Shown: positions 15,281 through 30,932 of the stretch, in pieces
Numbering within the stretch: the stretch's first letter is position 1
How the letters are laid out: the number at the start of each line of letters is the position of its first letter
Assembly (NCBI RefSeq): GCF_003635115.1
Contig: NZ_RBXJ01000002.1
Span: 434,001 to 498,000 of the forward strand
DNA: 64,000 bases
DNA from: Microbacterium sp. AG1240
GTDB lineage: Bacteria; Actinomycetota; Actinomycetes; Actinomycetales; Microbacteriaceae
Reading direction: 5' to 3'
Notes under the pieces: generated by a model
Database searches by the model: none
What the model was told of the DNA's origin: nothing
The model's input: only the letters and a program-made list of their open reading frames with translations
Translations under genes and position numbers: made by a program

Positions 15281-15441
15281 CGGTGCGAGGCGCTGCCGCT
15301 GAAGTGGAAGGGGATCGCCAGAGAACCGGCGACGCAGAGGATGCCGACGATGAACACCAGCGCCTGGATCGGCACGATCGAGAACGAGATGCCGATCAGG
15401 AAGATTCCGCCGAGCAACAGGATCAGAGCGATGACGTACAT
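15277..15441 (-). CDS. 54-residue two-helix membrane protein upstream of the decarboxylase
   Basis: An ATG at 15441 has a near-ideal GAGGAGG ribosome-binding site upstream. The product starts MYVIALILLLGGIFLIG and has two hydrophobic helices (about residues 2-22 and 27-46) and a short His-containing tail. Its TGA overlaps the decarboxylase ATG, so the two are translationally coupled. It is easily missed because of its size. I recognise no family; a role in anchoring or in export of the decarboxylase product is speculation. Confidence 0.8.
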   Translation of the reverse strand: MYVIALILLLGGIFLIGISFSIVPIQALVFIVGILCVAGSLAIPFHFSGSASHR

Positions 15442-27697: not shown

Positions 27698-27711
27698 GGC
27701 CGCCTCAGGCG
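27691..27711. terminator. Compact bidirectional terminator containing both stop codons
   Basis: CGCCTGAGG (27691-27699), 3-nt loop, CCTCAGGCG (27703-27711). Both convergent genes' TGA codons lie within the two arms, so the last codons of both genes form the hairpin. Confidence 0.8.
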
Positions 27712-28568
27712 GGCCGCACCACCGAGCGCACGACGACCACGTTCGATGCCTCGTCGACCTCGACGACCTCGGGGTGGGCCTTGACGAAGTCGGAGAAGCT
27801 GCGGAAGCCGAGCCCCTTCTCGCTGAACGAGGGGTCGAGGCGCTTCATGAGGTCTTTGAGCGCCGATGCGTGCAACCACTCCTCGTCGGCCCGCTCGTTC
27901 TCGAGCTGCAGCGCCCGCTCCAGGAGGTTCACCGACGGGTCGGTCGACCGTTTGCGGGCGCGGCTGCGCGCGGGCGCAGCATCCTTCTTCGAGGGTGTCT
28001 CCCGAACGACTCCGGGGAGGGAGTCATAGGCGTCGAAGCGGTCGCACGCGGAGGCGAGCGCCTTGGCCGTCGAGCCGGCGACGCCCACGCCCACGACGTA
28101 GCGACCCAGGCGCTTGCAGCGCTGCGCGAGAGGTACGTAGTCGGAATCGCCCGCGACGATGACCACGTGCGTGAGGTCCGGAAGGCGGAACATGTCTTCG
28201 ACGGTATCGACGGCGAGACGTATGTCGGCACCGTTCTTCGCGTACGCGGCGGCCGGGAACAACTGCACCAGATCGATGGATCGCGCGACGAGCTGGGCGC
28301 GATACTCGGCGTTCACCGGCGATGACCAGTCGGCATATGCCCGCGTGAGCACGAGGGTGCCGAAGGATGCGGCGTAGTCGATGATCGCTCCGACGTCGAT
28401 GGTCGCCGCGGCCAGCCGCTCGGCGACCTCGGGGGCGACGGGGCTCTCGGCGATGCGCTGGCGGTCGCGGGAATAGGCGTTGCGGCCGTGCACACGGTCG
28501 TACCACGACATCACGATGTTGTCGAAGTCCAGATAGACGGCGACACGGGCGGTCTGCGTTTCGGGCAT
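27705..28568 (-). CDS. NYN-domain RNase-like protein with OST-HTH/LOTUS domain
   Basis: 287 residues. The N-terminal ~175 residues are a NYN (DUF88, PIN-like) domain with the acidic metal site: AVYLDFDNIVMSW, KNGADIRLAVDTVEDMF and VVIVAGDSDYVPLA. After a basic linker (~190-210) comes an OST-HTH RNA-binding domain (~215-285, GFRSFSDFVKAHPEVVEV). Such proteins are predicted RNA-processing nucleases. The ATG is 6 nt behind CAGACT. Confidence 0.88.
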   Translation of the reverse strand: MPETQTARVAVYLDFDNIVMSWYDRVHGRNAYSRDRQRIAESPVAPEVAERLAAATIDVGAIIDYAASFGTLVLTRAYADWSSPVNAEYRAQLVARSIDLVQLFPAAAYAKNGADIRLAVDTVEDMFRLPDLTHVVIVAGDSDYVPLAQRCKRLGRYVVGVGVAGSTAKALASACDRFDAYDSLPGVVRETPSKKDAAPARSRARKRSTDPSVNLLERALQLENERADEEWLHASALKDLMKRLDPSFSEKGLGFRSFSDFVKAHPEVVEVDEASNVVVVRSVVRPA

Positions 28569-28586: not shown

Positions 28587-29570
28587 TCAGCCCTCGTCGG
28601 GGTACCGCAGCCCGATCTGCGCGCGCACCGCGTCGAGCGTGCCCATGATCGCCACCGTCTCGTCGATGGGGAGCCCATCGCCGGCGAGGTTCTCCTCGGC
28701 GACGAGCTTCTCGGCGTGAAGCGCCTGGTACTGCATGCCGCGCCCCTCGATCTCGGAGTGGAACTCCTCGATGACCTCGCCGTCGGGGCGCGTGACGCGG
28801 AACGAGGTCGGGGTGTACCAGACCCGATCGATGTCGATGCGTGCCTCGGTGCCGACGATGTGGGCGGTGTTCGGGCCGGCGCCCCTCGACGACGATACCG
28901 TCGTCGAGAGCGCGCCGTCGGCGTGGCGGAAGATCGTGGCGATCTCCGCATCGGTGCCGGCGTCGGAGATCCGCGCCTGGGCGGTGATCTCGGTCGGTTC
29001 GCCCAGGATGTCCCAGGCGAAGGACACCGGATAGATCCCGAGGTCGAGCAGGGCGCCTCCGCCGAGTTCGATCGCGTTCAGACGGTGCGTGGGGTCGTCG
29101 CTGATCTGCTGCGTGTGATCGGCGAAGAGGGTGCGCACCTCGCCGAGCACCCCGGATGCGACGAGCTCGCGGATGCGGATCATGTGGGGCAGGTAGCGGG
29201 TCCACATCGCCTCCATGGCGAGCAGCCCGCGCTCCGCCGCGCGATCGCGAACGGCGGCGGCCTGCGTCGCATTAAGGGTGAAAGGCTTCTCCACCAGCAC
29301 GTGCTTGCCGTGGTCGAGGGCGAGGAGGGCGTTGTCGGCGTGGAACGGATGCGGCGTCGCGATGTACACGATGTCGACCTCGGGGTCGGCGACCAGGTCT
29401 TCGTACGACCCGTACGCGCGGGGTATGCCGAACTCGGTCGCGAACTCCTTCGCCGCCTCGATCCGGCGCGACCCGACGGCCGTGACCGTGCGTCCCGCCG
29501 TCTTCAGGTCGCTCGTGAATGCGTGCGCGATCCCGCCCGTGGCGAGGATGCCCCATCGAAGTCCGTCCAT
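28587..29570 (-). CDS. Gfo/Idh/MocA-family NAD(P)-dependent oxidoreductase
   Basis: 327 residues with the Rossmann motif WGILATGGIAHAFTSDL, IVYIATPHPFHADNALLAL and the family Lys motif HVLVEKPFTLNATQA. The C-terminal alpha/beta domain includes GGGALLDLGIYPV. It resembles dihydrodiol dehydrogenase or sugar dehydrogenases; substrate unknown. The ATG is 7 nt behind TAGTCT and lies back to back with the M20 peptidase promoter. Confidence 0.88.
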   Translation of the reverse strand: MDGLRWGILATGGIAHAFTSDLKTAGRTVTAVGSRRIEAAKEFATEFGIPRAYGSYEDLVADPEVDIVYIATPHPFHADNALLALDHGKHVLVEKPFTLNATQAAAVRDRAAERGLLAMEAMWTRYLPHMIRIRELVASGVLGEVRTLFADHTQQISDDPTHRLNAIELGGGALLDLGIYPVSFAWDILGEPTEITAQARISDAGTDAEIATIFRHADGALSTTVSSSRGAGPNTAHIVGTEARIDIDRVWYTPTSFRVTRPDGEVIEEFHSEIEGRGMQYQALHAEKLVAEENLAGDGLPIDETVAIMGTLDAVRAQIGLRYPDEG

Positions 29571-29603
29571 GACTCCGAGACTAACCGGGCGTAGTCTCGA
29601 CGA
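29571..29603. promoter_or_regulatory. 33-bp divergent leaderless promoter region
   Basis: Two -10-like TAGTCT hexamers face apart: minus strand at 29578-29583, 7 nt from the ATG at 29570, and plus strand at 29592-29597, 6 nt from the GTG at 29604. CGAGACTA and TAGTCTCG make the region itself an inverted repeat. Any -35 elements must lie inside the opposite promoter or gene. Confidence 0.75.
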
Positions 29604-30932
29604 GTGTCGTCCTCGGTCGAGAGATTCCGCGAACTGCTGCGCATCCCCACGGTCTCGCACGTCGACCCGGCGCGTGTCGACGTCGGCGCGTTCGACGCCT
29701 TCCACGAGGGTCTCGAACGCCTGTATCCCCGGCTGCACGCGGCACTCGAGCGGGAGGTCGTGAGCGGTCACGCGCTCCTCTACCGGTGGCGCGGGGCCAG
29801 CGACGCCGAACCCCTGGTGCTCATGGCGCACATGGACGTGGTGCCCGTCGTCGCGGGGGAGTGGCAGCATCCGCCGTTCGCCGCCGAGGTCACCGGAACC
29901 GGGGCCGACGCGATGATCCACGCGCGCGGCGCCATCGACGACAAGGGCGCGCTCGTCGCGATCGTCGAGGCCGTGGAGGGACTGCTCGCCGACGGCACGA
30001 CGCCATCGAACGACGTGTACCTCGCGTTCGGTCACGACGAGGAGATCGGCGGCACGGGTGCGCAGTCGATCGTCGACGTGCTGCACGCGCGAGGCGTGCG
30101 TCCGTCGCTCGTGATCGACGAAGGAGGCGCGGTCGTCCGCGGGGCGGTGCCGGGCGTCTCGGCGCCGACGGCCATGATCGGCGTGGCCGAGCGGGGAATC
30201 CTCTCGCTGGCACTCTCGGTTCCCGAACGCGGCGGACACGCCTCCACACCCCCGGCCATGCCGGCGACGGCGCGGCTCGCACGCGCCATCGACCGTCTGC
30301 GGCGCCGCCCGTTCCCTCGACGCCTGGCGCCGCCTGTCCGCGCGATGCTGGCGACCGCCGCACCCCACGCCTCGGGGGCGCTCCGACCCGTGCTGCGCCG
30401 GCTCGACGGGTTCGGACCGCTGCTGGCCCGCGTGCTGTCGCGTCTGGGCCCCGAGCTCAACGCCATCGTGCGCACCACCGCGGTCGTCACCGAGCTGTCG
30501 GGCTCGGACGGGCAGAACGTGCTCGCGACGCGCGCTCGGGCCACCGTCGACATCCGCCTCCTGACCGGCGACACGGTCGACTCCGCGGTCGCGCACGTGC
30601 GTCGCGCCGTCGCCGACCCGTTGGTCGAGATCGAGGTGCTGCGGGGGAACGATCCGTCTGCCGTCTCCCCCTGGCAGGGCGACGCCTGGCGGCGCGTCGC
30701 CCGAGCGGTGCGCACCACTCTCGGCGACGACGTCGTGCCGCTTCCCTACCTGCAGCTGGGGGCGAGCGACAGCCGGTGGTTCACCCGCATCAGCGACGCC
30801 GTCTATCGTTTCGCGCCGTTCAGCCTCAGCGCCGACGAGCGCGCCGCGCTCCACTCGCACGACGAGCGGATCGGTGTCGACACGTGGCTGCGGGGGATCG
30901 GGTTCTACCGGGCGGTCATCCTCGACCGGTGA
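29604..30932 (+). CDS. M20-family zinc metallopeptidase
   Basis: 442 residues. Metal-site motifs of M20 (PM20D1/carboxypeptidase S-like) are visible: LVLMAHMDVVPV with His and Asp, GRGAIDDKGALVAIVEAVE-type RGAIDDKGALVAIVEA with the bridging Asp, and FGHDEEIGGTGA with the Glu pair. The central dimerisation domain spans ~185-330. No signal peptide is present, so it is cytoplasmic. The GTG is 6 nt behind TAGTCT. Its last 17 bp overlap the 3' end of the convergent gene. Confidence 0.9.
   Translation: MSSSVERFRELLRIPTVSHVDPARVDVGAFDAFHEGLERLYPRLHAALEREVVSGHALLYRWRGASDAEPLVLMAHMDVVPVVAGEWQHPPFAAEVTGTGADAMIHARGAIDDKGALVAIVEAVEGLLADGTTPSNDVYLAFGHDEEIGGTGAQSIVDVLHARGVRPSLVIDEGGAVVRGAVPGVSAPTAMIGVAERGILSLALSVPERGGHASTPPAMPATARLARAIDRLRRRPFPRRLAPPVRAMLATAAPHASGALRPVLRRLDGFGPLLARVLSRLGPELNAIVRTTAVVTELSGSDGQNVLATRARATVDIRLLTGDTVDSAVAHVRRAVADPLVEIEVLRGNDPSAVSPWQGDAWRRVARAVRTTLGDDVVPLPYLQLGASDSRWFTRISDAVYRFAPFSLSADERAALHSHDERIGVDTWLRGIGFYRAVILDR

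Follow-up and report, generated by a model that had tools for sequence, protein, structure and literature searches.

The 33-bp gap that separates a Gfo/Idh/MocA-family oxidoreductase gene from a head-to-head M20-family peptidase gene in Microbacterium sp. AG1240 most probably holds two independent leaderless promoters back to back, each served by the housekeeping sigma factor through a -10 element only, in a gap that drifts in length and is short here by chance. We put the probability of this reading at roughly 0.86. Each promoter would in essence be a TANNNT hexamer 6-7 nt upstream of the start codon, a position from which transcription would begin at, or directly beside, the first base of the start codon (ATG or GTG), yielding an mRNA without a leader. 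Since such a promoter would need only about 12 bp, two could fit in about 30 bp, leaving the distance between the genes free to drift over evolution; its shortness in this species would be happenstance. Two polymerases probably could not occupy the 33 bp at once, and at ordinary promoter strengths this exclusion would carry little cost and impose no lasting choice between the genes. Promoters of this -10-only leaderless type are common in Actinobacteria, and the oxidoreductase/M20 pair is a compact example of this known type.

The features of the locus are collected in Table 1, with positions counted in the window (the whole 64,000-nt stretch of DNA that was analyzed). The oxidoreductase matched the Pfam family GFO_IDH_MocA (2.9e-22) and the peptidase matched Peptidase_M20 (3.5e-29), while the best NCBIfam model for the latter, NF006113, fell short of its cut-off (339 bits against 503). 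The initial annotation had placed the two start codons 33 bp apart with a TAGTCT hexamer 6-7 nt from each, and had described the two -10 elements as an inverted repeat. Coordinates and hexamers were confirmed, and the inverted repeat has two perfectly matched 8-bp arms with 8 bp between them. The hexamers face outward and lie 8 bp apart, and each arm consists of a hexamer plus two flanking bases. The predicted transcription starts are 34 bp apart. In the nearest named relative, Microbacterium sp. Gd 4-13 (L052), the M20 peptidase is 96% identical and the 33-bp gap is identical. An NYN domain protein with an OST-HTH/LOTUS domain is encoded at 27705-28568 (-), 18 bp downstream of the oxidoreductase gene on the same strand, and these two genes perhaps share a single transcript.

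Table 1. Features of the oxidoreductase/M20 peptidase locus (window positions).
Feature	Position	Strand	Details
Gfo/Idh/MocA-family oxidoreductase	28587-29570	-	327 aa; ATG at 29570; predicted leaderless; basis: reading frame, Pfam, start kept in relatives
M20-family peptidase	29604-30932	+	442 aa; GTG at 29604; predicted leaderless; basis: reading frame, Pfam, NCBIfam
Intergenic region with both promoters inside	29571-29603		33 bp; genes head to head
Oxidoreductase -10 hexamer TAGTCT	29583 to 29578	-	7 nt to ATG
M20 peptidase -10 hexamer TAGTCT	29592-29597	+	6 nt to GTG
Inverted repeat CGAGACTA-N8-TAGTCTCG	29576-29599		arms CGAGACTA 29576-29583 and TAGTCTCG 29592-29599; by-product of two similar -10 elements
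Weak -35-like ATGACT	29569-29574	+	found by reading; 17-bp spacer to the M20 -10; 4/6 match to TTGACA

The distance from hexamer to start codon strongly supports promoter function. Across 1444 genes called in seven genomes, TANNNT occurred 194 times at 6 nt and 66 times at 7 nt (260 in all), against 110 occurrences spread over 16 off-peak distances (0-5 and 11-20 nt), or about 7 each. The counts at 8, 9, and 10 nt formed a shoulder (27, 21, and 14, respectively). Genes were called with a simple codon-usage script and the counts are approximate. The same signature was present in the species' own genome, where 402 genes called in 464 kb gave 57 TANNNT hexamers at 6 nt and 20 at 7 nt, 7 each at 8 and 9 nt, and 0-3 at most other distances. 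The oxidoreductase and M20 hexamers (7 and 6 nt, respectively) sit at the genome's preferred distance, and the height of this peak over the off-peak distances indicates that the TAGTCT pair is not a chance occurrence as promoters. According to PMC3160421, leaderless genes can be recognized by a TANNNT about 12 bp upstream and make up on average 19.2% of Actinobacteria genes, and PMC3898074 describes TANNNT without a conserved -35 in M. tuberculosis, where closely juxtaposed divergent promoters are common. The promoters described here agree with these accounts in the TANNNT at 6-7 nt, the lack of a conserved -35, and the expected absence of a leader, and there is no difference in principle except that the present 33 bp hold two of them back to back. 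Among open-license PMC papers, none was found that treats Microbacterium, transcription start sites, and leaderless genes together.

Both promoters were conserved in relatives. Of 111 loci scanned, 94 had an M20 match, and in 54 of these it faced, head to head, an oxidoreductase with more than 45% identity; those bearing names were Microbacterium or were labeled only Microbacteriaceae or Actinomycetes. In 53 of these 54 loci both sides had a TANNNT at 6 or 7 nt, under a rule that is biased to leaderless starts: of the in-frame starts with TANNNT at 5-8 nt and no more than 90 bp from the projected start, the one closest to it was taken for each relative (the off-peak TANNNT rate is about 0.5% per distance). 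The sole exception, L070, had no leaderless M20 start. After L070 and L057 (with N in the gap) were left out and five repeated regions merged, 47 distinct regions were analyzed. The oxidoreductase hexamer lay at 6 or 7 nt in all 47 (TACGGT in 17, TAGGCT in 15, TACGCT in 9, and others in 6), and the M20 hexamer lay at 6 nt in 46 and at 7 nt in one (TAGGCT in 37, others in 10). Together with the positional signature, presence in 53 of 54 head-to-head loci strongly supports the original proposal of two divergent leaderless promoters. The oxidoreductase promoter was also present in 11/11 loci without an M20 gene in the examined stretch, a count that omits L027 and L030 (<45% identity). M20 homologues outside the head-to-head loci, largely from other genera, had a leaderless start in only 19 of 40 cases. 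In L057, from a metagenome assembly, the N run upstream of the M20 gene lies between two near-identical copies of the peptidase promoter region and is probably an assembly gap.

Each promoter had also been thought to need a -35 element overlapping the other promoter or coding sequence. The geometry part of this claim stood, in that ATGACT overlaps the oxidoreductase start codon and fits by eye as a -35 of one promoter. The -35 itself did not, for there was no excess of TTGAC-like sequences at 16-19 bp spacers in the 47 homologous regions or upstream of 77 leaderless genes of the species' own genome. A -35 hidden in the neighboring gene was thus rejected for a promoter class without a -35 signal, and ATGACT is probably not a conserved element. 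With no such signal in either set, both promoters are read most simply as -10-only.

The tight packing of the two promoters is not conserved. Over the 47 regions the gap ranged from 28 to 544 bp with a median of 59 bp, and it was at most 40 bp in 6, at most 60 bp in 24, and at most 80 bp in 30. When gap lengths were placed on a maximum-likelihood tree built from the 47 M20 proteins, the six short gaps (at most 40 bp) required 6 changes, compared with a mean of 5.8 when shuffled, and L003, with 28 bp, has a 64-bp pair as its sister. Gaps above 80 bp required 7 changes against a shuffled mean of 14.2, with 0 of 500 shuffles as low; because these long gaps cluster on the tree, gap length is partly inherited. 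Selection for short gaps was considered and ruled out, given that short gaps are scattered and only 2 of 22 doubly leaderless pairs have a gap of 33 bp or less.

The inverted repeat raises the alternative that it is the operator of a dimeric regulator governing both genes, as its perfect 8-bp arms and 8-bp center at the oxidoreductase/M20 gap, and the longer arms in L003, would suggest. The arms are the -10 elements themselves, however, and their spacing tracks the gap from 28 to 544 bp. Identical 8-mers occurred on both sides in 14 of the 47 regions, where 10.8 were expected from shuffled partners. Mean arm identity was 6.234/8 within loci and 6.230/8 between shuffled loci, with 2750 of 5000 shuffles as high, so the arms are not matched beyond what each needs for itself. 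Arms that match no better within than between loci mean that the repeat follows from two copies of the same consensus; it is no more frequent than chance and is not selected. On this permutation we reject the operator as very improbable. L003, with the shortest gap of the 47 (28 bp; intergenic region at about 1671-1698 after reversal), has perfect 12-bp inverted arms around a 4-bp center, ACCG, and is by eye the most palindromic case; chance among many loci might give such arms.

The initial annotation had further read the locus as an intrinsic either/or switch. Under such a reading, polymerase exclusion would leave any given cell expressing only one of the two genes. RNA polymerase covers about -55 to +20 of a promoter. 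One such footprint would extend over both hexamers, and at a 34-bp spacing of the starts, well inside it, mutual exclusion of two polymerases is likely on geometry and footprint; the gaps of 80 bp or less in many of the homologous regions also speak for the switch. Against it, short gaps recur but are not kept, as the 64-bp sister of the 28-bp pair illustrates, the repeat is not selected, and the oxidoreductase promoter persists in loci without an adjacent peptidase gene. Moreover, nothing beyond the two -10 elements, and no feedback element, was seen within the 33 bp when its sequence was checked for features of a bistable switch. Simple exclusion without feedback would hold a memory of only one polymerase residence, and cells should not sort into two states. 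PMC12825309 adds that five E. coli promoters whose divergent starts are closer still (10-23 bp) competed little at basal activity. A switch, if real, would amount to a decision element that needs no regulator; the evidence does not point to one, and we hold it to be extremely improbable.

Milder, conditional coupling is the other alternative: the promoters would be independent at basal level, and strong activation of one would lower the other. The 34-bp geometry allows for it, and in the E. coli work (PMC12825309) competition emerged once one direction was strengthened and the other direction was then greatly reduced, except that one change, bdcR, did not stimulate as expected. For one promoter, the restrained direction was also reported there to be less noisy. 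At the oxidoreductase/M20 pair neither an activator site nor a regulated state is known, both promoters look plain and are without a detectable -35, and the short spacing is not kept. Such coupling is unlikely, though worth keeping in mind, and it is compatible with two independent promoters.

Bidirectional promoters with a shared -10 in E. coli and other prokaryotes resemble the present pair in having divergent starts too close for two polymerases, but their starts are mostly 18, 10, or 23 bp apart and flank or lie within the shared -10, and separate divergent promoters are not classed with them in PMC12825309. The oxidoreductase/M20 pair falls outside this class in the sense of Warman and Grainger (overlapping -10 elements with starts about 10-23 bp apart), since its starts would lie 34 bp apart and its two -10 elements are separate. 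The closely juxtaposed promoters of M. tuberculosis are, like the present pair, divergent TANNNT promoters: in PMC3898074, the prpD/Rv1129c pair is leaderless on both sides, and it rises together on starvation rather than one gene at the other's expense.

Compact divergent pairs of this type also occurred elsewhere. Of the 227 divergent pairs in the seven genomes, 22 were doubly leaderless under the strict 6-7 nt rule, and the two with a gap of 33 bp or less, oxidoreductase/M20 and L051, are both from the AG1240 genome, whose sample gave 11 of 67 such pairs with a 6-9 nt rule and 5 of 69 with the 6-7 nt rule. The second pair (L051:15311-15340) has the same layout in a 30-bp gap, with starts at 15310 and 15341 both predicted leaderless; judging by their sequence and by features typical of the families, we take the genes to be an acetyltransferase and dapB. 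Within the genus, loci were drawn from the 30 best of the 39 genomes that matched, and 12 of these 30 lacked the acetyltransferase; this pair was doubly leaderless in 18/18 head-to-head loci, with gaps of 17-127 bp when the smallest among candidate starts was taken.

The 17-bp case (L148:2323-2339, G018) has the gap CCACTTAGGCTAGACGC between dapB (complement, ATG 2322) and the acetyltransferase gene (ATG 2340), with both reading frames intact (275 and 160 aa). It contains one TAGGCTA, read as TAGGCT in one direction and TAGCCT in the other, with an ATG 6 nt away in either case, and the predicted starts are 18 bp apart. This is the commonest start distance at bidirectional promoters in PMC12825309, and L148, with its one symmetric TAGGCTA, fits the shared -10 class described there. 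No 17-bp gap occurred among the 22 doubly leaderless pairs of the seven genomes, and the shared -10 is a single-locus case. Among open-license PMC papers, no title or abstract was found that reports two leaderless genes with a -10 in common, and in the texts of PMC12340547 and PMC10937400 divergent or bidirectional promoters appeared only in one reference title.

From these loci we tentatively suggest, at somewhat less than even odds, that gene pairs in the genus slide with both promoters intact from gaps above 100 bp to 28-38 bp and on to a fused symmetric -10 in a 17-bp gap, as at L148. Such a series would be possible because little beyond a -10 box is needed for a leaderless promoter. If so, the oxidoreductase/M20 pair (47 regions) and the acetyltransferase/dapB pair (18 loci) would form two natural spacing series, giving interference and expression noise as a function of distance with genes and promoters nearly constant. 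The natural range of 28 to 544 bp, together with the fused pair, would thereby offer a direct test of how close divergent promoters can come before they interfere.
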